47,578 nucleotides of DNA from a virus. Of this stretch, positions 2,412 to 47,578 are shown piece by piece. Within the stretch, counting starts at the first letter, position 1. Each line of letters begins with the position of its first letter. The notes under the pieces are model-generated. The model had not been told where the DNA came from. It was given only the letters and a program-made list of their open reading frames with translations, and ran no database searches. Location: the IMG/VR virus record IMGVR_UViG_3300017783_000042, positions 1-47,578 of that record; one strand, 5' to 3'. Position numbers and translations under genes: made by a program.

Positions 2412-4180
2412 TAAATATTCTCAATATAAAAATAGAAGGTTTTGGGTCCATCAGAGATCCTCTAGAATTTCCTTTTAACTCTTTAGGAGTCAATATAATT
2501 AGAGGAAAAAATGGTTCTGGGAAAAGTACTATTTTCAATGCTATGGTTTGGGGACTTTATGGAACTAATTTGAAGGGAGTAACTTCTAAGAAATTAGTGA
2601 CCAAAAAACCTTTTAGGACTTCTGATTTTCAAGGAACTAGAGTGGTGATAGATTTAGAAATAAATGGAGATCTTTATTTTATAGCTAGACATATTTCTTT
2701 TAAAGGTGATACCTTAGGAATTAAAGGAAATAGTAGTTTATTAGTTTGGAAAAATGATGAGTTAGTAAATACTCAACATGTGGCTGATTCTCAGAAATAT
2801 ATTTTAGAGCTTTTAAAACTCCCCTTAAAAACTTTTCTTAGTTCTATTTTATTTGGGCAAAGAATGAAAAGGTTTATTGAGGGAAGTCCAGCTGAGAAGA
2901 GAGAAATTTTTGAATCTATTATTGATCTTTTATTCGTGGATAAAGCTAGAGTAAAAGCTAAAGATTCTCAGGATGAACTTGAAGCACTGATAGAAAAATC
3001 TAATCAAGATATTCTATTAGCAAAAGCTGATACTGAGAACATCCAATCTTTAATTAAATCTCATAAAGAAACTTTAGCTAATTTCGAATCTTTAAAACAG
3101 AAACAAATATTAGAAATTAATGGAAATATTTCTAATATTCAAGAGAGAACATTAGAGTATGTTTTAGAAGAAGTTCCAGAGCTAAAAAAAATAGATGAAT
3201 CTCTTCTTCCTAATTATAGAAATTGTGAGAGTGAATTACAGCAAATAATGAGAGGAAGAGACAGATTAAACCCTCCAGCGAATCCTACTAGTATTTGCAA
3301 TCATTGTGGTCAATCTATTGATGCTAGTATTATGGCTGAACTTCAAAAACAGTATAAAAATCACCTAGAAGAATATGAGGAAAAACTAATAGAATATAAT
3401 GTTAATATCGAGAAACATAACGTTGAATTAAAAGAATTAAAATCTAGGTTAGTTGCTCAAGAAGTATTAGAAAAATTTAATAATGAAGTGGCTAGTTTAG
3501 TTGGAAGAAATCATTTAAGAGAAACTAACCTAAAAACTTTAGAAACTCAGAGATTAAATTGGAAATCTCAACTTGAGACAGTAAAAGCTCAGCAACTACC
3601 TTCTATTGATTTAGATTCTAAGACCCAAAAGATTCAATCTAACAAACTTTTAATTCAAAATAGTATATCAACAATAGATCAAATAAATAAGACCTTAGAA
3701 GTCGTTAAATGGTGGGCCTCTACAGGTTTCACTTCTAAAGGGTTAAAAGGACACATGTTAAATTCAGCATTATCTTTACTAAATGAAGCTATTTTTAAGT
3801 ATAGTTCTAGGTTAGGATTTAATATTTCTTTTGCGATAGATACCACTAGAGCATCTAAACCGTTTACTACTAAATGTTTTCTCCAAGATATTGAATTAGA
3901 TTATAACGAATTCTCAGGAGGAGAAAAAGCAAAAGTAGATGTAGCAACAGCTTTTGCTATCCATGACTTAGTATCTTCTTCTATAGGTTTTAATATTTTA
4001 ATTATGGATGAAGTTTTTGAGGGATTAGATATTGAGGGAATTGAGGATGTATTCGATTTAATAAGATTGAAAGCACAGGAAAAAATGCTTTACATCATAA
4101 CCCACTCAGACCAAATTGATTCTTTAAATACTAAAAGAATTGATATTATCAAAATTAATAATACAACTAAATTAAAATGA
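2408..4180 (+). CDS. sbcC: SbcC/Rad50-like ATPase (T4 gp46-like)
   Basis: An SMC-type ATPase of 590 aa. Walker A (G33 to T41, GKNGSGKST) is at the N-terminus, coiled coil lies on either side of a zinc hook CNHC (C297, C300), then the ABC signature FSGGEK (502-507) and Walker B ending D534-E535. The hook is expected to dimerise through Zn. It is short for the family, as is usual for phage gp46 proteins, because the coiled-coil arms are small. It would act with the preceding SbcD-like nuclease on DNA ends during recombination and replication. It overlaps its neighbours by 4 nt on both sides. Confidence 0.92.
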   Translation: MINILNIKIEGFGSIRDPLEFPFNSLGVNIIRGKNGSGKSTIFNAMVWGLYGTNLKGVTSKKLVTKKPFRTSDFQGTRVVIDLEINGDLYFIARHISFKGDTLGIKGNSSLLVWKNDELVNTQHVADSQKYILELLKLPLKTFLSSILFGQRMKRFIEGSPAEKREIFESIIDLLFVDKARVKAKDSQDELEALIEKSNQDILLAKADTENIQSLIKSHKETLANFESLKQKQILEINGNISNIQERTLEYVLEEVPELKKIDESLLPNYRNCESELQQIMRGRDRLNPPANPTSICNHCGQSIDASIMAELQKQYKNHLEEYEEKLIEYNVNIEKHNVELKELKSRLVAQEVLEKFNNEVASLVGRNHLRETNLKTLETQRLNWKSQLETVKAQQLPSIDLDSKTQKIQSNKLLIQNSISTIDQINKTLEVVKWWASTGFTSKGLKGHMLNSALSLLNEAIFKYSSRLGFNISFAIDTTRASKPFTTKCFLQDIELDYNEFSGGEKAKVDVATAFAIHDLVSSSIGFNILIMDEVFEGLDIEGIEDVFDLIRLKAQEKMLYIITHSDQIDSLNTKRIDIIKINNTTKLK

Positions 4181-4392
4181 ACCAATTAGAAGATCAAGAC
4201 AAAATGCCATATGGACCTTATAAAGGACAATACATGGAAGATGTGCCAGGGTGGTGGTTATTACACCAAGCAAAATACTGGACAAATAAAACTATCACTA
4301 TGGGTAGTCCTTTACACCTGGTTTTAGAGTACGTGAAAGAGAATAAAGAAATTTTAATAAAGGAAGTAGATGAACAAAGAGGACAAAATTAA
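4177..4392 (+). CDS. DUF3820-like small protein, 71 aa
   Basis: The motif MPYGPYKGQYMEDVP (from residue 10), followed by WWLL, matches the general pattern of DUF3820 proteins (M-P-F/Y-G-x-Y-K-G-x-x-x-x-D-V-P). These small domains of unknown role are common in phage and bacterial nucleic-acid operons. It overlaps sbcC by 4 nt and the HNH gene by 23 nt, so it is co-translated with the recombination genes. The first part of the next gene carries a second, diverged copy of the same pattern. Confidence 0.65.
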   Translation: MNQLEDQDKMPYGPYKGQYMEDVPGWWLLHQAKYWTNKTITMGSPLHLVLEYVKENKEILIKEVDEQRGQN

Positions 4393-5158
4393 ATTAGATA
4401 AAATAATTGCTGATAAGAAATTGGCAATTTCTCAATCTCATTTAAGATTTACAGATGAACATACTTGGCCATTTAATGGGATTTATACAGGGTATCGTTT
4501 GAAGCATATCCCTATGGAATTTTTGAGACAATATTTCAAAGATCATAATTTTATTAAAACCCCTAATGAGAGTTGTTCAGAATTTGCAAATAGGTACCAA
4601 ACAGTAAAGGGCAAATTATTATCATATATTAGGAAGAGAATAAAAGCTACTGATAGAAAACCGAAGAATTATTATACTAAAAATAGCTACTATGTGAATA
4701 ATGGTAAAATCAGAAAAAGAATACAGGAAGGAAGACCTATTCCAGAAGGTTTTAAAAAAGGGTATAAATTAGATAATCATAACTTTAAATTAAACGTGAG
4801 AAAGTACACTAAATTATATTACAATTTTTTCGGGTATACTATTGACCCAGGTTTTTTCGTACCTTGTGAATTAACTGGACAAAAAGCCGTAGATATTCAT
4901 CACATCTCTTGTGGAGGAATGGGTGGAACTGACCAAGAAGATACTATTGAAAACTTAATGGCACTAACTAGAGATTGCCACCAAATTTTTGGAGATAAAA
5001 AGCAGTTTAATGATATTCTTTTAGAAGCTCATTTGCACTTCATAAACCATGGAGAATCCTTAATTCAACATGACCCTCATAATATTATTTTTGACGAACT
5101 ATTAAAATTCAACAAATGGAAAAATTTAGTGTTAAAAGCACGCCGTCTATCGTCCTAA
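4370..5158 (+). CDS. HNH-type nuclease with N-terminal DUF3820-like segment
   Basis: 262 aa. The C-terminal half has an HNH arrangement: C166, the H177-H178 pair (DIHHI), N195 (ENLMALT) and H204 (RDCHQIF). Residues about 33-56 (WPF..GIYTGYRLKHIP..FL) echo the DUF3820 pattern of the preceding protein, and a basic Lys/Arg-rich stretch (about 80-135) probably binds DNA. It could be an operon recombination or repair nuclease, or a free-standing homing-type enzyme. Its tight overlap on both sides (23 nt upstream, 43 nt downstream) argues for an integrated phage function. Confidence 0.75.
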   Translation: MNKEDKIKLDKIIADKKLAISQSHLRFTDEHTWPFNGIYTGYRLKHIPMEFLRQYFKDHNFIKTPNESCSEFANRYQTVKGKLLSYIRKRIKATDRKPKNYYTKNSYYVNNGKIRKRIQEGRPIPEGFKKGYKLDNHNFKLNVRKYTKLYYNFFGYTIDPGFFVPCELTGQKAVDIHHISCGGMGGTDQEDTIENLMALTRDCHQIFGDKKQFNDILLEAHLHFINHGESLIQHDPHNIIFDELLKFNKWKNLVLKARRLSS

Positions 5159-6300
5159 CGGCTGATCAAATAGCAGGAGGACTTTTCTTGGAATCCTCAG
5201 GGAAATATAAACTTCTCAAAGGATCTGCAGGAACAGGGAAAACCACTTTAATTGCTAGGCAATGCAATAAGGATAAAGATATTTTAATGACAGCTCCAAC
5301 TCACAAAGCTGTGCAAGTACTTTCTTCTAAAGTGGTTTCAGAATGTAGAACTATTCATTCGTATTTAAAATTGGAAAGAAAACTAGAGGGAAGTAAATAT
5401 GTTTTCGTGAGAGATGAAACCCAAGAACTTGACCAGATAAAGAAATTATATGTGGATGAGGCTTCAATGTTAGATACTAGAGTTTTGACATATATCATTG
5501 AAGCAGCTGAAGAATATGGATTTGACGTAGTATTCATCGGGGATGAAAAACAATTGAATCCAGTTGGTGAGAAGAATTCTCCAGTATTTGAGTTAGGAAT
5601 TCCTGAATATGAATTGACAGAAATCCTTAGGCATCAAAATGATATTATCGATCTTTCGAGAAATTTACATTGGTTAAAAGAGAAGAGAGATGGAAAACAT
5701 TTTAAATGGTGTGACCCTGCAAATATGCCAATAGAGTTATTACTAGAATCTAATGGAACTGATAAATGTAAATTCATTACATGGACTAATAAAATTGTGG
5801 ATATTGTAAACAGAGAAGTGAGAAAACAACTTTACCATGAACCAGGACAATTTGAGATAGATGAGACCATTCTTTTGAAGGAGCAATTTGGAGATCTCTA
5901 TAAGAATAATCAAGAAGTAGTTGTAGAATCAATTGACGAATCTCACGTGTATTTTAATAAGGTTAATATTCCCCATAAATACATTGAAACTTATGTTATA
6001 AATGAAGATCTACAATGTATGAAATTGACTGAGCAAATTAAGCACCAACAGAACCTAGATAATTTATTAGAAAAAGCTAAAAATCATATCTGTAGTTGGA
6101 AAGATTTCTTCAACTATAAAGAACAATTTTGTAGCTATCAATATAATTCTGCGATTACCGTTCACAGGTCCCAAGGAAGTACCTTTGAAACCTCTATTGT
6201 GAACATCTCAGAAATAATGAGAAACCCAAATGATGTAGAACGTGCTAGAATGCTTTATACTGGAATTACTCGAGCAAGTGAAATGAATTTATTTGCATAA
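5116..6300 (+). CDS. SF1 DNA helicase, Dda/RecD-like
   Basis: 394 aa. Helicase motifs in order: Walker A GSAGTGKT (36-43), Ia TAPTHKA (59-65), Walker B VDEAS (113-117), III GDEKQLNP (142-149), an arginine-containing ILRHQ (170-174), then TVHRSQG (348-354) and YTGITRA near the C-terminus. This is the pattern of SF1B 5'-3' helicases such as T4 Dda and the RecD2 core. Likely roles are replication initiation, fork remodelling or branch migration. It starts inside the end of the HNH gene; no later ATG precedes Walker A, so the 43-nt overlap seems real. Confidence 0.88.
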   Translation: MEKFSVKSTPSIVLTADQIAGGLFLESSGKYKLLKGSAGTGKTTLIARQCNKDKDILMTAPTHKAVQVLSSKVVSECRTIHSYLKLERKLEGSKYVFVRDETQELDQIKKLYVDEASMLDTRVLTYIIEAAEEYGFDVVFIGDEKQLNPVGEKNSPVFELGIPEYELTEILRHQNDIIDLSRNLHWLKEKRDGKHFKWCDPANMPIELLLESNGTDKCKFITWTNKIVDIVNREVRKQLYHEPGQFEIDETILLKEQFGDLYKNNQEVVVESIDESHVYFNKVNIPHKYIETYVINEDLQCMKLTEQIKHQQNLDNLLEKAKNHICSWKDFFNYKEQFCSYQYNSAITVHRSQGSTFETSIVNISEIMRNPNDVERARMLYTGITRASEMNLFA

Positions 6301-7941: not shown

Positions 7942-8394
7942 ATGCAAAAATCTTATGAATTAATAGGAAGTTTCAATGAAGATTGTACCTCTATTAATTT
8001 TTTACATACTAATATTTATTCTCCATTATTCAATGAATTTTGGAAGGATAAAGAATTACATATAACTGTACGTGTGGCTGCAAAGAAAAGGTCTATTCAA
8101 CAAAATGCTTATTTTCATGCAGTTATAGTTCCTATTGTTAAAGGTTTCTTAGAAGAGGCCACAGGGGTTTTATATGATAACGAACAAACTAAACTTTTTA
8201 TTTATCACGAATTAGTTGGATTAAAATTTGAGAAAGTTACTATTGCAGAAGTAGACTATCATCAACTTAAAGGCAAAAGAATGTCTCAAAGGAATACTAA
8301 AGAATTTAATGAAGCTAAAGAATCTATTCAAAGAAAAATGGCTTTAATGGATATTATAATTCCTGACCCAACTTCAAAATATGGATTATTATGA
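7942..8394 (+). CDS. ninB: NinB-like recombination protein
   Basis: 150 aa. The central RSIQQNAYFHAVIVPIV resembles the signature of NinB/lambda Orf proteins (basic residues, then Q-N-A-x-x-H), which bind ssDNA and help load recombinase. The basic patch RVAAKKRS just upstream could contact DNA. It overlaps the next gene by 4 nt and is the first clearly recognisable gene of a nucleotide/recombination operon. The assignment rests on one motif and general length, so I treat it as probable. Confidence 0.6.
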   Translation: MQKSYELIGSFNEDCTSINFLHTNIYSPLFNEFWKDKELHITVRVAAKKRSIQQNAYFHAVIVPIVKGFLEEATGVLYDNEQTKLFIYHELVGLKFEKVTIAEVDYHQLKGKRMSQRNTKEFNEAKESIQRKMALMDIIIPDPTSKYGLL

Positions 8395-8708
8395 GTAAGA
8401 AAGTGGCATTAAAATTTAAGGTTGAAAAAACTCCTTATGATAAGGATGGGAACGGTTCCCACTATAAAACTACAAGAATAGATGTTATGGCTCAAATAGA
8501 AAGACTTTGGGGGACTGAAGGGGCCATGATTTTTTGTGAAACCAATGCCTTTAAATATAGGTCTAGAATAGGAAATAAAGATAATCCTGAACAAGAACTT
8601 TTAAAGATTTCTTGGTATGAAAAAGCATCTAAAATCTATTTTGATAAATTAGGAACAAAAGAAGAAATTATTATTGATAACCGTAAAAAAACAGAATTCA
8701 ATTTATGA
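8391..8708 (+). CDS. DUF3310-like protein
   Basis: 105 aa. The C-terminal pattern NAFKYRSRIGNKDNPEQELL followed by K-x-x-W-Y-x-x-A matches DUF3310/SaV-like small phage proteins (N-A-x-K-Y-x-x-R ... D/E-L-x-K-x-x-W-Y), often annotated loosely as nucleotide kinase although the function is unproven. It overlaps both neighbours by 4 nt and lies directly before the thymidylate-synthase-family gene, which fits a nucleotide-metabolism context. Confidence 0.6.
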   Translation: MSKKVALKFKVEKTPYDKDGNGSHYKTTRIDVMAQIERLWGTEGAMIFCETNAFKYRSRIGNKDNPEQELLKISWYEKASKIYFDKLGTKEEIIIDNRKKTEFNL

Positions 8709-9469
8709 ACATGCAAGACAAATATTTAGAAATTTTTAAGATGATGTTTTCACATGGAGTCTTAAGAAACGATCGTACAGGAATCGGATGTTATTCTTTA
8801 TTTAATATGTATTTATCTTTTGATTTATCTAAAGGAAAATTTCCACAAATGACTCATAGACATATTTCTGAAAAAGTTCATAAAGCAGAATTTGATTGGA
8901 TTCTTTCAGGACAAACTAATATAAAACCTTTACAAGAAAAAGGTATTAAAATATGGGACCTTTGGGCAGATGAGGCTGGTGATTTAGGGCCTGTCTATGG
9001 TTACCAAATTAGAAACTTTAATGGTGAAGGTATAGACCAATTAAAAAACCTCTTAGAAGGGTTAAAAACAAACCCAGATTCAAGACGTCATATCATTAGC
9101 CTTTGGAATCCTGCTCAAACTGCAGAAATGGCTTTACCTCCTTGCTATCCTTACTTTCAATTTTTTGTAGAAAATAATAATCTTAATTTATTTGTGGTCC
9201 AACGTTCTGCAGATTGGTTAGTAGGTGTTCCTTATGATATTTGTCTTTATTCAAGACTTTTGATTTATGTAGCTTCTCAAGTGGGATTGCAAGCTCAACA
9301 TTTAGATATGAATTTTATTGATGCTCATGCTTATGTAAATCATCAAGAATTTGAAGATAAATTTAATTCAGATATTGAATTTCCAGATTACCATCTGAAT
9401 GAAGAAAATGAAATTATTATTTCTAATTATAAACATGGTGGGAAAATCCGACCAGCAATAAATGTCTAA
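8705..9469 (+). CDS. thyA: Thymidylate synthase-family enzyme, probable dCMP-specific methylase/hydroxymethylase
   Basis: 254 aa, aligned by eye with ThyA along its length: NDRTG near the start, E62 in the active-site helix, IWDLWADE..GDLGPVYG, SRRHIISLWN, catalytic C147 in PPCYPYFQF, QRSADW, and a C-terminal PAINV. Two residues differ from true ThyA. The His after the catalytic Cys is Tyr (Y148), and the Asn that reads the uracil ring (E. coli N177, LPFNI) is Asp (D178, VPYDI). T4 dCMP hydroxymethylase gp42 also has Asp there and lacks the His. I infer a dCMP substrate, yielding 5-methyl- or 5-hydroxymethyl-dCMP. Ordinary dTMP synthesis remains the alternative. It overlaps the DUF3310 gene by 4 nt and dut by 1 nt. 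Confidence 0.85.
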   Translation: MNMQDKYLEIFKMMFSHGVLRNDRTGIGCYSLFNMYLSFDLSKGKFPQMTHRHISEKVHKAEFDWILSGQTNIKPLQEKGIKIWDLWADEAGDLGPVYGYQIRNFNGEGIDQLKNLLEGLKTNPDSRRHIISLWNPAQTAEMALPPCYPYFQFFVENNNLNLFVVQRSADWLVGVPYDICLYSRLLIYVASQVGLQAQHLDMNFIDAHAYVNHQEFEDKFNSDIEFPDYHLNEENEIIISNYKHGGKIRPAINV

Positions 9470-9909
9470 TGAGATACAAAAAATTAAAACCTACAAAAGA
9501 CCTTGAAAGAGGCACGAAATTATCTGCTGGAATTGATATGTTCATCCCGTATGATTTTACTCCCTATGTTCTTATTCCAGGGGAAAGTATTTTAATTCCT
9601 TCAGGGATTAAAGTTAAAATCCCTCATGGATATGCTCTACAGGCTAACAACAAATCTAGCATAGCTACCCAAAAAAAATTGATCGTTGGAGCTGAATTAG
9701 TTGACGAAGATTACCAAGGTGAAATTGGGATTCACTTGATAAATGTTGGTCAATCTAGAGTGCAATTAGAACCTGGTATGAAAATAGTACAATGGGTTCT
9801 TATTAAAGTTTCTTATGATATGCCAGAACCAGTAGAAAATGAAGAAGAGCTTTATGGAAATATAGTTACTGAAAGAGGTTCTGGGGGCTTTGGTAGCACA
9901 GGAAAATAA
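9469..9909 (+). CDS. dut: dUTPase (dUTP diphosphatase)
   Basis: 146 aa trimeric-type dUTPase. Five motifs are visible: SAGIDMF (19-25), NNKSSIAT (60-67), VDEDYQGE (78-85) with the catalytic Asp79 and Tyr82 that stacks on deoxyribose, GMKIVQ (103-108), and C-terminal RGSGGFGSTG (136-145). It hydrolyses dUTP to dUMP, preventing uracil incorporation. The ATG overlaps the preceding stop (TAATG). A terminator hairpin starts 10 nt after the stop. Confidence 0.93.
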   Translation: MRYKKLKPTKDLERGTKLSAGIDMFIPYDFTPYVLIPGESILIPSGIKVKIPHGYALQANNKSSIATQKKLIVGAELVDEDYQGEIGIHLINVGQSRVQLEPGMKIVQWVLIKVSYDMPEPVENEEELYGNIVTERGSGGFGSTGK

Positions 9910-10977: not shown

Positions 10978-11394
10978 ATGCCAAAAGAAAATATATCAGA
11001 AGTTTACATAGAAATGGCCCATATTTATGCTCAATTAAGTTATGCCAAAAGAAGGAAAGTAGGAGCAATTTTAGTGAAAGATAATAGGATAGTTTCAACA
11101 GGATATAATGGAACCCCTACAGGAATGGATAATGAGTGCGAAACTCCAGAAAATATTACAAAACCTGAAGTAGTACATGCTGAGATTAATGCTATTCTAT
11201 TTGCCGCTAGGAATGGTCAATCTACAGATGGATGTACCTTATATTTGACTCTTTCTCCTTGTGTGGAATGTGCAAAAGCCATCATTCAGTCTGGGATTAA
11301 AAGAGTGATTTATTCAGAAACTTATAGATGTACTGATGGCCTAAAGTTATTATTCGAAAATCATATTAAGCTAGACTTTCTACCTTTAGAATAA
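10978..11394 (+). CDS. dCMP deaminase
   Basis: 138 aa zinc-dependent deaminase. TGYNG (41-45), then H67-A-E69 (HAEINA: Zn ligand and proton shuttle) and P94-C95-x-x-C98 (Zn ligands) define the cytidine/deoxycytidylate deaminase family; ComEB and T4 Cd are close models. It converts dCMP to dUMP. With dUTPase it controls the dUMP pool. If the ThyA-like enzyme at 8705 really acts on dCMP, the two enzymes compete for or share dCMP. The operon ends with an AT-only hairpin. Confidence 0.92.
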   Translation: MPKENISEVYIEMAHIYAQLSYAKRRKVGAILVKDNRIVSTGYNGTPTGMDNECETPENITKPEVVHAEINAILFAARNGQSTDGCTLYLTLSPCVECAKAIIQSGIKRVIYSETYRCTDGLKLLFENHIKLDFLPLE

Positions 11395-23688: not shown

Positions 23689-23874
23689 ATGATTGATATT
23701 CCAAAATTCCCTAATTATGCGATGGGCAAGTCTGGCAAGGTTTACCGTAAAAATGGATTTTCAGAAGTACAGAGAATCAGAAGACCTGAAGGATTTATAG
23801 TTACTTTGACTTATAAAGGAAAAACAAAAGATTTTCTTATTAGTGATTTAAAAAAATTATTGTATGGCACGTAG
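23689..23874 (+). CDS. NUMOD4-like small protein
   Basis: 61 aa: IPKFPNYAMGKSGKVYRKNG ... TLTYKGKTKDFLISDL. The W/I-P-x-F-x-x-Y-x-(V/M)-S/G-x-x-G-x-V pattern is the NUMOD4 motif that normally precedes an HNH homing nuclease. No HNH follows here; instead the next gene, overlapping by 11 nt, encodes a GIY-YIG protein. This may be a separate DNA-binding partner or a remnant. Start chosen at ATG 23689, because the in-frame TTG at 23671 overlaps the promoter. Confidence 0.6.
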   Translation: MIDIPKFPNYAMGKSGKVYRKNGFSEVQRIRRPEGFIVTLTYKGKTKDFLISDLKKLLYGT

Positions 23875-24736
23875 AAAATGGAGTAAGGAACTTTTACAGA
23901 TTGAAGCTTTGAAATTCTCGAGTAGAGGTGACTTTAGGAAAGGTTCCCCTAATGCATATTCAATAGCACAAAAAAAAGGGATCTTAAATCAGCTGTGCTC
24001 TCACATGAAAAATAAATTAACTTACTGGACTAAGGAGCTTTTACAAGCTGAAGCTTTAAAATACTCGAGTAGAAATGATTTTTATAAAGGTTCTCTTAGT
24101 GCTTATATTGCTTCATCTAGAAGGAACCTTCTAGATGAAATTTGCAAACACATGAAAAATAAATTAACTTACTGGACGACTGAGATGCTCATTGATGAAG
24201 CAAATAAATATTCTAGTAGGAGTGAATTTCAAAAAGGTTCACCATCGGCCTATAATATAGCATGGGGGAGAGGAATCCTACAGGAAATTTCTTCTCATAT
24301 GGCCCTTAAACATAAATCTTGGACAATTGAAATGCTTATTGATGAATCCCTAAAATATTCTAGTAGAAGTGACTTTAAGGAAGGAAGTTCCTCAGCTTAC
24401 GCTATAGCATGTGGGAGGGGGATTCTAGAACAAGTGTCTTCTCACATGGAAAAGAACGTAGGAAATAGATTTTTTCGATGGGTTTATAAGTCAATTGACT
24501 ATACATCGAAAACTATTTATATTGGTTTAACTTATGATTTAAAAATGAGGTTAGAAACCCACATAAAGCAATCTAGGGAGCTTCTAGCACTTCATATTCA
24601 GGAATTCGGTTTAATACCTGTTACAGATCAAGTAATTCCAGCTCAAGAAGCTGCAAATTTAGAGAGAAAATTAATTAAATTATATCGATCTAAAGGGTGG
24701 AACGTTTTGAACAAATCAAACGGAGGGGAGCTTTAA
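23864..24736 (+). CDS. GIY-YIG endonuclease with four tandem 49-aa modules
   Basis: 290 aa. Four tandem modules of exactly 49 residues (W6-M48, W55-M97, W104-M146, W153-M195) share W-(S/T)-x-E-x-L ... YSSR-x-(D/E)-F-x-K/E-G-S-x-x-AY ... L-x-x-(I/V)-x-S-H-M, and probably each contact DNA. The C-terminal part is a GIY-YIG nuclease: WVYK (206-209), IYIG (218-221), R229, H233 and a Glu in NLERKLIKLY. The layout is that of a homing-type or mobile endonuclease with a repeat-built recognition domain. Adjacent modules 1-2 and 2-3 are nearly identical in part (29 identical bases at 24002 and 24149). Confidence 0.75.
   Translation: MARRKWSKELLQIEALKFSSRGDFRKGSPNAYSIAQKKGILNQLCSHMKNKLTYWTKELLQAEALKYSSRNDFYKGSLSAYIASSRRNLLDEICKHMKNKLTYWTTEMLIDEANKYSSRSEFQKGSPSAYNIAWGRGILQEISSHMALKHKSWTIEMLIDESLKYSSRSDFKEGSSSAYAIACGRGILEQVSSHMEKNVGNRFFRWVYKSIDYTSKTIYIGLTYDLKMRLETHIKQSRELLALHIQEFGLIPVTDQVIPAQEAANLERKLIKLYRSKGWNVLNKSNGGEL
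24002..24177. repeat. Exact 29-bp direct repeat, 147 nt apart
   Basis: Bases 24002-24030 and 24149-24177 are identical, spaced by the 147-nt module unit (49 codons). This shows recent module duplication inside the GIY-YIG gene. Confidence 0.8.
24112..24139. repeat. 28-bp near-perfect palindrome inside the GIY-YIG gene
   Basis: TTCATCTAGAAGG (24112-24124) and CCTTCTAGATGAA (24127-24139) are perfect inverted arms around AA. They fall in module 2 (residues about 84-92); modules 1, 3 and 4 have no counterpart. Confidence 0.75.
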
Positions 24737-43674: not shown

Positions 43675-43693
43675 AAATTAAAAAAATTTAAGA

Positions 43694-46600
43694 ATGAAAA
43701 ATATTTTTATAGCTTTATTACTACTCTTCTCTTATCAAGCTTCAGCTCAATTTGATATTTCTTTTTATAATTGTTCTCAATCAACTCGGATTAATTGCAA
43801 AGGGTGTGATATTCAAAAAGATTTATTTACAGGGATAATTATAAAAGGAGGTCGAAAACCTGATATTGCTTTTTATTCTCCAGTTAAAGTAACCACTCAA
43901 GGTTCATTAGTAACTTTTACGGATGCTTTTGGAAGTACTCGAACTATTAGATTATCTCAGCTAAATAACTACTCTACGTTGCCTCAATTACTAGGGGCAA
44001 TTGCAGATTTCCAATGTGACCCCCTTTTACCTGTTTGTAGTGATGGGCAAGCTCTTATTTATGATACAAATAGTGGGGATTGGATTTGTAGTGATTTTCT
44101 AAATATTTATACTGAAAATAATACTATACAAGAGAATAGATTAGTAACAATAAAATCAGATTCATCACTTTACTTCGGTAATGATTTTGATGAAGGTATA
44201 GGGGTAAGATATTTGTCAGGATTCACAGGAATTCCTACTGCTGGTGATTATAATGTTAGGGGTGCATCTTTATGGTTTAATAATAATGTGAGTGGTGAAG
44301 AGGCTAGCATTGGTTGGGGAGATGGGGAAGAGTTCCAAATCGCAACAAATCAAAGAATGTTTGTGAATTCGGGAAAGATGAAATTTACTTCAACAGGAAG
44401 AATTCAATTCTTAGCTAATGATGAAGATATTACTTTTACAACAACAACGGGAGATATTGTTTTTACTCCAACAGCACTTGCAAAAGGTGTCCGATATACT
44501 GGTTATGGAATAGGATCAAAAAGTTTGGCAACCTTGGGAAAAACTGGATTAGGTTATGTCTTTGGAATTGCTGATGATGGAACTGCTTATGACTTAGCAA
44601 TCTCAGATATTCAACAAGGAAATTTATATCTGAATGATGGTACATTGACAGGTGATAGGACGGTGACAATGGGGGGAAATAATTTGACTTTTACAGGGGG
44701 GCAGTTATTAACAGACTTAGGGGGTTATCAAAATCCTTCTTATAGTTTTTCAAATAATAGAGGTTCGGGGTTGTATTCATTTGGTTCAAATGGAGTCGCT
44801 TTAACAGCAGACTCTAGTTATATTTTAGGTTTTCTTCATTCAAGCGGTGTGAATACGGCTACAATTTACGGTTCGGGGAATAATAGTGTAGGTGCTGGAA
44901 ATTTGACGATAACAGAAAATTCAAATGCTTTAGGTGGTAGTGAAAATGTTAGAACATCTATGTTTTGGTCAGGTGGAGTATTTAATATTGACGCGTGGGA
45001 AGCAGGCGTTGGGTACGAGAAGAACATATCGTTGAATGGATTGGGTGGAAATGTAGGAATAGGGACAACACCTAGTCACAAATTTAGCATTTCGGAGCAA
45101 AGCGTTCATTTCCAATGGTCAGGAACAGCGTTAAATACCTGGAGTGCATTTCGTCTTACTAATACAGATGATGTAATGACGGGCGCAAACCATACAATGT
45201 CATCAAATGGTACAGATTTGATTATTAATCGTTCGGCTGGAGGGGATATATTGTTTCGAGAAGCGAACGCAACTCAAATGAGTTTAGATGAAGATGGAAA
45301 TGTTGGAATAGGTACAATTGACCCAAGATTAAAGCTAGGAATTAACGGAGGTGTTAGTGTTGAAGCGGGAAACCCTTTGCGATTGTATAGTTTATCCAAT
45401 ACGCAATACAGTCATATACTGACTGATGCAAGTTCTAATTTAGAAATAAAAGCTCTTGGAACTGGTGCAAGTGATGTAAACATATTAGCAGCTGATAATA
45501 TAAATTTTGGTACTGATTATTTAGATAATTTTTCAACCAAAATGACCATTTTAGATAATGGGAATGTTGGAATAGGAGTTGTAAATCCTACTACGAAATT
45601 GCAAGTTGATGGTACTATTAAAACAGGAAGTTCAACAAATGCTGGAAATATATTACTAGAGAATGACCAACATATTTGGAATATGTACACAGCGAACGGC
45701 GCTGACCATTTGTATCTAAAAGGCGCTGGAATTTTACGAGTACGAGACGCTTCAAATGATGATAAATTACAGGTCAATATGACAAATGGACATATTAATT
45801 TCGGGGACTATGGAAGTAATAATATCACGGGAACGGAAACAGGCTTGCTAGGCGTAACAAGTTCGGGTGATGTGATTGAAGTTGACCCGTCAGGATTTGG
45901 AACAGTTGGAGGTAGTGGAACAGCTAGTTATATTCCTAAGTTTTCAGCAGGTGGAACGGATATTGAAGATTCAAGAATTATTCAATATGCTGATAGTTTA
46001 GTTATTAGCGGTGACGGTGGAATGACTTTTTTGAGGTCTGACAATGTGACGAAAATAGGTTCAATTTCAAAAGTTACAGACGGACTAGAAATAGAAGGTT
46101 CGCAAAATTCTAATTTAATTTTTAAAACTTTAGGGAATCAAGATAGTGAGGGTTTTATTTTTCGTGATGCAAGCGACAACGGATTAGTAAAAATTCAAAA
46201 AAATGGAAATGTTGGGATAGGAACAAGTAACCCAAGTACAAATCTCCATATAACTAAGTCAACGGCTTATGGGAACACTATAAGACTTGAATCGGCAGGT
46301 AGTTATTGGGATATAGAAAAGGGAGAGGATGGGTATAGTTCACAAGCCTTATCCCTTTTGTATAATGGGAATAGAAATATTAGAATGATGGATGGACATC
46401 TTAATATGTTCACCACTAAAATATTAAGTAATGCGCACACTATCTTTACCGACCCATCAGTAAATTATAACGTAGGTTTTGGAACAGGTTCACCCGCCTC
46501 AGGTACTAGGGTTCAAATAAATGGGAAAGGGAATGGAAGTGGAACATATGGGCTAAAAGTTGAAAGTCAAACAGGAACTAATTTAGGGTTAGCTGTTCGG

Positions 46601-47578
46601 GATGATGGGAATGTGGGGATTGGAACAGATGTTCCAGCCGAAAGACTACATGTTGTTGATGGTAGAACAAGACTAGATTCAACGTTGATAATGGCGGGGG
46701 ATGAACCGCTTATCTCAATCGGCAAAGGAGGAAATATCTCTAATGCGGGAGCAATTCAATTTGTTGAAAATGGTTCTTCAAATTACAATTTCGGTTTCCG
46801 GTATAGACTTGACGGGGTGAACAATGAATTGGTTTTGGAAAGCATGAATGGGTCAAATGTAAATGATACAATAATGTTATTTGATAGAGATGTGAGAGAT
46901 GTTCAATTCTCTCAATATGGAGTTGGTTCTTTTGTTGATGCTTCTCCGGCATACTTACTTGGAGTAAATTCTTCGGGAGACATTAAGGAAGTTGACTTGG
47001 GGACTGTAGGCTCTGTTTCGGGGTCAGGAATACAAAACCAAGTGGCTAAATTTTCAGCAGGAGGAACGGATATTGAGGGTTCATTAATTTATAGCAATGG
47101 AATAGGAGTAGGTATGGGAGGGATCACAACACCGACGGCAGCTTTGGAAGTTGGAGGGAGTGGGATTACAAGTTCCTCGGCATTTGGTTATACCTTGGGA
47201 ACTTCTAACGAAACCCCAATTGGTTCATGGTCAAATGTTGGAGGGATTAATAGGTTTAGCGGGGGAACAGCTACAAGTCCTAACACTAGAGATTTTGAAT
47301 TCTATAACGGTACTGATGTAGTTATGCATCTTGATATGTTTGGAGAGAAAGTTGGCTTAGGTGTTTCAAATCCATCTCATAGATTAGATGTAAATGGTAA
47401 TGCAAGGATAGGACAACAATTGAATGCAAATGTTGCAGCGTCTTACATTTTAAGTCCTTCGTTAAGTTCTTTAGGAGAGGAAGATATGTTGATGATGCTT
47501 GCTTCAAATACAGCATCTTCTAGTAATTTGACTTTTGGTGGCGGTAGTACTATTTACAATGCGGCAACTTCGATAAAT
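43694..47578 (+). CDS. Tail fibre / receptor-binding protein with signal peptide (partial)
   Basis: 1295 codons without a stop to the window end, continuing in frame at base 1 if the genome closes. The N-terminus MKNIFIALLLLFSYQASA-Q reads as a Sec signal peptide. A short Cys-rich domain (about 20-145) follows, then about eight units of the type NVGIGTxxPxxxLxVxG (e.g. 45052, 45297, 45560, 46203, 46609, 47350), as in beta-helical phage fibres and Bacteroidota surface proteins. Two longer segments are duplicated (FSAGGTDIE at 45937 and 47047). No S74 chaperone is seen at the end. Likely adsorption protein; the signal peptide is unusual for a virion protein. Confidence 0.78.
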   Translation, partial: MKNIFIALLLLFSYQASAQFDISFYNCSQSTRINCKGCDIQKDLFTGIIIKGGRKPDIAFYSPVKVTTQGSLVTFTDAFGSTRTIRLSQLNNYSTLPQLLGAIADFQCDPLLPVCSDGQALIYDTNSGDWICSDFLNIYTENNTIQENRLVTIKSDSSLYFGNDFDEGIGVRYLSGFTGIPTAGDYNVRGASLWFNNNVSGEEASIGWGDGEEFQIATNQRMFVNSGKMKFTSTGRIQFLANDEDITFTTTTGDIVFTPTALAKGVRYTGYGIGSKSLATLGKTGLGYVFGIADDGTAYDLAISDIQQGNLYLNDGTLTGDRTVTMGGNNLTFTGGQLLTDLGGYQNPSYSFSNNRGSGLYSFGSNGVALTADSSYILGFLHSSGVNTATIYGSGNNSVGAGNLTITENSNALGGSENVRTSMFWSGGVFNIDAWEAGVGYEKNISLNGLGGNVGIGTTPSHKFSISEQSVHFQWSGTALNTWSAFRLTNTDDVMTGANHTMSSNGTDLIINRSAGGDILFREANATQMSLDEDGNVGIGTIDPRLKLGINGGVSVEAGNPLRLYSLSNTQYSHILTDASSNLEIKALGTGASDVNILAADNINFGTDYLDNFSTKMTILDNGNVGIGVVNPTTKLQVDGTIKTGSSTNAGNILLENDQHIWNMYTANGADHLYLKGAGILRVRDASNDDKLQVNMTNGHINFGDYGSNNITGTETGLLGVTSSGDVIEVDPSGFGTVGGSGTASYIPKFSAGGTDIEDSRIIQYADSLVISGDGGMTFLRSDNVTKIGSISKVTDGLEIEGSQNSNLIFKTLGNQDSEGFIFRDASDNGLVKIQKNGNVGIGTSNPSTNLHITKSTAYGNTIRLESAGSYWDIEKGEDGYSSQALSLLYNGNRNIRMMDGHLNMFTTKILSNAHTIFTDPSVNYNVGFGTGSPASGTRVQINGKGNGSGTYGLKVESQTGTNLGLAVRDDGNVGIGTDVPAERLHVVDGRTRLDSTLIMAGDEPLISIGKGGNISNAGAIQFVENGSSNYNFGFRYRLDGVNNELVLESMNGSNVNDTIMLFDRDVRDVQFSQYGVGSFVDASPAYLLGVNSSGDIKEVDLGTVGSVSGSGIQNQVAKFSAGGTDIEGSLIYSNGIGVGMGGITTPTAALEVGGSGITSSSAFGYTLGTSNETPIGSWSNVGGINRFSGGTATSPNTRDFEFYNGTDVVMHLDMFGEKVGLGVSNPSHRLDVNGNARIGQQLNANVAASYILSPSLSSLGEEDMLMMLASNTASSSNLTFGGGSTIYNAATSIN

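Follow-up and report, generated by a model that had tools for sequence, protein, structure and literature searches.

A Tyr147/Asp177 thymidylate synthase homologue in a virus record: a predicted dCMP 5-methyltransferase and its dUTPase-fold neighbour

Does a thymidylate synthase (TS) homologue that carries Asp in place of the Asn that reads the uracil ring still use dUMP, or does it act on dCMP, and what would then become of the product? The question is raised by a gene of an IMG/VR virus record of 47578 bases, which was analysed in its whole length and is called the window below. The large terminase of the window has Flavobacterium phages as nearest named relatives (34% identity), which points to a Bacteroidota host. 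A long tail-fibre-like ORF (43682-47578) is cut off at the 3' end; the record is therefore incomplete there, and a second TS could lie outside it. Further observations on the record are a strong record-wide depletion of CpG (odds 0.49) without a rise of TpG, at a G+C content of 33%; a pyrimidine-dimer DNA glycosylase of the T4 endonuclease V type (PF03013, 11485-11862) directly 3' of the deaminase gene; and a GIY-YIG protein (23864-24736) whose nuclease domain is preceded by four internal repeats, each about 46 residues long. The scanned window proteins, which are a subset of the ORFs, included no recognisable glucosyltransferase or other hypermodification enzyme, and the DNA polymerase used as query against viral contigs found no relative.

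The TS homologue and its active site

The features of the locus, with residues of the window proteins in their own numbering, are the following:

8391-8708, + strand: DUF3310 protein directly upstream of the TS gene and overlapping its start (domain match); in relatives a DUF6378 protein is found there
8705-9469, + strand: TS homologue with Tyr147/Asp177 (E. coli numbering), predicted dCMP 5-methyltransferase (PF00303, alignment, AlphaFold2)
9134-9136, + strand: codon of Leu144, position -3 from the catalytic Cys, which is Asp in gp42-type hydroxymethylases (alignment; PMC6400193)
9143-9148, + strand: codons of the catalytic Cys147 and of Tyr148, the latter His147 in E. coli TS (alignment)
9236-9238, + strand: codon of Asp178, equivalent to Asn177 in E. 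coli TS and Asp179 in T4 gp42 (alignment)
9446-9466, + strand: C-terminal tail IRPAINV, similar to the TS closing tail IKAPVAI and absent from gp42 (alignment)
9469-9909, + strand: dUTPase-fold protein, whose start shares 1 base with the TS stop codon (PF00692, 2.3e-19; fold match)
9694-9696, + strand: codon of Glu76, position -3 from the catalytic Asp79 in motif III of the dUTPase-fold protein, Gly in canonical dUTPases (alignment)
10978-11394, + strand: dCMP/dCTP-type deaminase with motifs HAE, PCxxC and GYNG (PF00383, 6.4e-27; phrog_174, 6.4e-60)

The TS ORF encodes 254 amino acid residues, of which residues 6-244 are covered by PF00303 (E 1.5e-71), and the protein also matches E. coli ThyA among the PDB sequences, with 37% identity. 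Its AlphaFold2 model has a pLDDT of 91.6 and E. coli TS (1tys) as top PDB match, with a TM-score of 0.93. Direct alignment with ThyA and T4 gp42 gave the equivalences C147/C146, Tyr148/His147, Asp178/Asn177 and E62/E58 (window/E. coli). These are the assignments proposed in the first-pass annotation, and the alignment bears them out, since Asp178 stays at the Asn177 position and no other residue is placed there. The same holds for its remark that gp42 lacks the His, as T4 gp42 carries Thr in place of the His and Asp in place of the Asn. Fold, catalytic Cys, Glu58, Arg phosphate clamp and C-terminal tail are shared with ThyA, as are all checked catalytic residues bar 147 and 177; the features missing are the dUMP-specific ones, Asn177 as reader of the uracil ring and His147. 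W80, W83 and Y94 are also retained. The record contains a single PF00303 copy and no ThyX, in agreement with the earlier observation that no second ThyA is seen.

Published single Asn-to-Asp mutants of TS became dCMP methylases producing 5mdCMP, and an experimental survey, in which phage DNA had been selected for cytosine modification, names 177 and 147 as the top two positions separating the TS of cytosine-modified from those of unmodified phage contigs (PMC8670742). These are precisely the two positions at which the window TS departs from ordinary TS. It is thus supported, at the level of sequence, that it carries the residues of dCMP-acting TS homologues. The dCMP-type active site claimed in the first-pass annotation therefore agrees with both residues and gene context, with some room left for an enzyme that uses dUMP. 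According to this alternative, the protein would be an ordinary TS supplied with dUMP by dUTPase and dCMP deaminase; the adjoining genes are the classical dUMP-supply set and the listed TS catalytic residues are otherwise intact, but the published Asn177-to-Asp mutants shift to dCMP and Asp177 marks the TS of cytosine-modified contigs in the same survey, and we regard the alternative as improbable. Likewise, the dUTPase and dCMP deaminase genes, which had been taken as a sign of dCMP chemistry, are real by their domain matches and recur in relatives; however, the same genes could feed a dUMP-using enzyme.

If dCMP is the substrate, the product may be methylated or hydroxymethylated, and both had been suggested. 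In T4 gp42, Asp145 at position -3 from the Cys activates the water that forms the hydroxymethyl group and the D145N change kills the enzyme; Asp145 together with a Ser and a Tyr close to it has been proposed as the hydroxymethylation signature, and gp42 has no C-terminal tail (PMC6400193). The window TS and gp42 are alike in the TS fold, the Cys, Asp at 177 and the loss of His147, but they are only 22% identical, fall in different tree groups, and Asp at -3 and loss of the tail are found in gp42 and not in the window TS. Since Leu144, the tail and both Trp are kept and the fold is closest to E. coli TS, the enzyme is predicted to be a dCMP methylase, methylation being better predicted than hydroxymethylation. 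Of the two products suggested earlier, the methyl form is thus retained, while Leu144 and the kept hydride-transfer residues and tail speak against the hydroxymethyl form. A gp42-like dCMP hydroxymethylase, with hydroxymethylcytosine in the phage DNA, would agree with Asp at 177 and the lost His147, both as in gp42, and also with a Bacteroides phage BF503P1 gene, related to the dUTPase-fold gene of the window, that lies between two annotated dCMP hydroxymethylase genes. Nevertheless, it is very improbable, given that Leu replaces the signature Asp both in the window TS and in 82/82 sequences of its clade, that the tail lost in gp42 is present, and that the window TS stands outside the gp42-type group on the tree.

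The Tyr147/Asp177 clade and its partner genes

The annotated-phage TS nearest to the window TS (40-46% identity) all carry His147 and Asn177. Closer relatives, with 46-55% identity and with Tyr and Asp at these positions, were found by pattern searches in viral contigs; the single window TS protein as query had given zero matches against them, whereas pattern and alignment searches succeeded. One alignment search gave 107 related contigs, of which 80 were kept, and the clade set comprises 82 sequences including the window TS. E58, W80, W83, Y94, R126, R127, L143, C146, Y147, R166, D169, D177, H207 and Y209 (E. coli numbering) are invariant in 82/82 sequences, an invariance that arises partly by selection because the search patterns contained some of the scored residues. 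The C-terminal tail is also kept across the 82 sequences, with V or I as last residue in nearly all. Because the sequences were pattern-selected, independent support for the clade comes from the conserved neighbour genes and from a maximum-likelihood tree built without columns 143, 147 and 177, in which the window TS still falls within the clade (SH-aLRT 99, and 100 in a second run) and the clade stands apart from the gp42-type and XP12-like enzymes. By these sequence comparisons, Tyr147/Asp177 is the mark of a conserved clade and no chance mutation.

No cultured phage was found in the clade. The cultured Arthrobacter phage Arcadia, whose TS is fairly close, was considered as a relative and rejected, its TS being of the ordinary His/Asn type, and a match in a Pirellula MAG (L306) was set aside because its TS appears chimeric or deleted. 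His147 is retained in 53/129 aligned Asp177 TS. Besides L024, L049 and L053, about 50 loci show an Asp177 TS with His147, mostly with Asp or Asn at the W83 position, and the checked members of this class also adjoin MazG. A small DUF6378 protein directly upstream of an Asp177 TS was observed at 465-722 in L118 and 1402-1740 in L014, and some of these proteins overlap the TS.

A MazG-type pyrophosphohydrolase follows the TS in 79 clade loci, with a median gap of 4 bp. MazG shares an all-alpha superfamily with dimeric dUTPase and T4 dCTPase (PMC12524310), so a dCTPase role of this neighbour is plausible. In two loci (L321 and L384) TS, MazG and dCMP deaminase form one tight operon, and the complete genome of Votkovvirus S28C10 (L390) shows at 3161-5182 an operon of NTP pyrophosphohydrolase, dTMP kinase, Tyr147/Asp177 TS with motifs LPCCY and LPYDV, and dCMP deaminase. 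A deaminase was not seen in the fetched flank of most clade loci, and none was found in the 47.7-kb G005 and 62.6-kb G006 records. The window itself contains no MazG; it holds the TS, the dUTPase-fold gene and the deaminase within 2.7 kb, the dUTPase-fold gene directly following the TS and the deaminase lying 1.5 kb beyond the end of the TS.

The dCMP methyltransferase of Xanthomonas phage XP12 was compared through the phage's relatives AXL1 and PaMx28, where an Asp177 TS and a deaminase are clustered with a gene annotated as pyrophosphohydrolase or hydrolase. The window TS shows the characters of the XP12 type, namely TS fold, Asp177, loss of His147 and no hydroxymethylation signature, and both types have a deaminase close by. 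On the other hand, identity is 26-29%, the two fall in separate tree groups, positions 147 and 143 are Pro and Asn in the XP12-like enzymes but Tyr and Leu in the window TS, and the nucleotide pyrophosphohydrolase beside the XP12-type TS is replaced in the window by the dUTPase-fold gene. Unlike the XP12-type set, the scanned window genes include no identified DHFR. With these differences, the gene set of the window (TS, dUTPase-fold gene and dCMP deaminase) is XP12-like. The window TS also shares both signature positions with the Asp177-type TS of the MetaGPA survey as described in passages of PMC8670742, and the partner domains given there, PRA-PH/MazG and dCMP deaminase, are those of the wider clade; these passages do not describe the Tyr147/Asp177 clade as such, and dUTPase is not mentioned in the text of the paper.

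The dUTPase-fold neighbour

The model of the 9469-9909 product has the trimeric-dUTPase fold (human dUTPase, TM-score 0.81). In common with human DUT and E. coli Dut, it retains the catalytic Asp and the Tyr of motif III and the C-terminal glycine-rich motif; it differs from trimeric dUTPases in motif I (GIDMF), in motif II (NKSS) and by Glu instead of the canonical Gly at motif III -3. The Glu alone was discarded as a sign of dCTP use, because relatives have C, S, A, Q, K or P there, because main-chain atoms are said to hold the base (PMC12524310), and because the tree offers a single independent contrast; the residue is therefore taken as a subfamily marker.

The genomic linkage of this subfamily was analysed in fetched loci, sampled with two different queries and with a few loci entered via their own Asp177 TS. 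Among dUTPase-fold genes without Gly at -3, 62/92 lie within about 5 kb of an Asp177-type TS and 0/92 near an Asn177-type TS, while among those with Gly the figures are 0/55 and 2/55, respectively; some very large records of the sample have an Asn177-type TS far from the dUTPase-fold gene. After dereplication at 90%, linkage to an Asp177 TS was 37/56 for the non-Gly set versus 0/33 for the Gly set (Fisher p 3e-11). On the tree a single change sets the non-Gly genes apart, and they count as one independent contrast, so the linkage speaks for the subfamily and not for the residue. Its TS partners are of several classes, hydroxymethylase types among them, and such varied Asp177-type partners fit a common need for the conversion of dCTP to dCMP. 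This pairing with Asp177-type TS, including hydroxymethylase-type ones, and with no Asn177-type TS within the fetched flanks of the non-Gly genes, also argues against a dUMP-using window TS. Furthermore, PF03819 MazG and PF00692 dUTPase-fold matches occurred together in 0/42 records.

In Bacteroides phage BF503P1 (L140, 18963-22522), the dUTPase-fold gene is 45% identical to that of the window, and the two annotated dCMP 5-hydroxymethyltransferase genes flanking it both encode Asp at 177.

The 9469-9909 product is therefore a candidate dCTP pyrophosphatase, or else a true dUTPase. As a dCTPase of unrelated fold, it would stand in for the MazG- or T4 gp56-type dCTPase of related dCMP-modifying loci, and would both supply dCMP and keep plain dC out of the DNA. 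No report of a dCTPase with the trimeric-dUTPase fold in phages was found in a limited literature search.

Fate of 5-methyl-dCMP and the Uhrbacteria enzymes

The most likely explanation, in our judgement from sequence and gene context, is that the 8705-9469 product is a predicted dCMP 5-methyltransferase in an XP12-like pathway. Judging from the residues, Cys147 would attack C6 of dCMP, Asp178 would pair with the cytosine ring, and methylene-tetrahydrofolate would donate carbon and hydride to give 5-methyl-dCMP and dihydrofolate. Genomic linkage suggests that the 9469-9909 product probably cleaves dCTP to supply dCMP. By analogy with XP12, 5-methyl-dCMP would then be phosphorylated and enter DNA as 5mC, and/or be deaminated to a thymine nucleotide by the 10978-11394 product, the substrate of which could be dCMP or 5-methyl-dCMP/dCTP.

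Modified cytosine in DNA and a route to dTMP by deamination had been put forward as alternatives. Both have precedents, yet they would be neither exclusive nor new, as they co-occur in XP12: every C of XP12 DNA is 5mC (PMC8670742; PMC7653180) and the XP12 deaminase converts 5mdCTP to dTTP (PMC12088426). No recognisable dNMP kinase was found in the window, AXL1 or PaMx28; its lack was dropped as an argument against incorporation into DNA because the XP12-like AXL1 and PaMx28 lack one too. A sub-case that overlaps the preferred explanation is a dCMP methylase serving thymine synthesis only, with 5-methyl-dCMP converted to dTMP and plain cytosine in the phage DNA. It would account for the deaminases encoded within the operon or close to it in the window, L321, L384, a Votkovvirus and Uhrbacteria, and for the dTMP kinase within the Votkovvirus operon, and DCTD enzymes also take 5-methyl-dCMP (PMC12088426). 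We consider it unlikely nonetheless, as the flanks fetched for most clade loci reveal no deaminase, none was found in G005 and G006, and XP12-like phages have a deaminase and XP12 DNA is fully 5mC (PMC8670742; PMC7653180).

A genome search found Tyr147/Asp177 TS also in three Candidatus Uhrbacteria MAGs of 0.9-1.2 Mb (L303, L304 and L305). The gene is in an operon with DHFR, a clear PF00383 deaminase is present as well in L304 and L305, and the best-assembled locus (L305) has a canonical dUTPase and a dCTP deaminase nearby. In all three MAGs this TS is the only PF00303 protein and no ThyX was found. Either these bacteria make dTMP via 5-methyl-dCMP, or Tyr147/Asp177 enzymes still use dUMP; no other finding speaks as strongly against a simple reading of Asp177 as the sole TS of Uhrbacteria, and its company of dCTP deaminase and canonical dUTPase would fit a dUMP-using enzyme in the window too. 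A broader proposal, that the dUTPase-fold subfamily is a phage dCTP pyrophosphatase and that the thymine route through Tyr147/Asp177 TS and deaminase extends beyond XP12-like phages into Candidatus Uhrbacteria, is possible and is advanced only tentatively.

The Uhrbacteria enzymes thus bear on two possibilities, that cells obtain thymine via 5-methyl-dCMP or that Asp177 predicts dCMP use less reliably than assumed, and either outcome would help the annotation of TS genes. If the dUTPase-fold subfamily does cleave dCTP, it would represent a dCTPase of a new kind, concealed by the dUTPase label. If the methylase prediction is correct, nucleotide-level methylation of dCMP, whose biochemistry is known mainly from XP12, would have a fixed set of partner genes and would be widespread in uncultured phages, as the 107 contigs of the one alignment search suggest.
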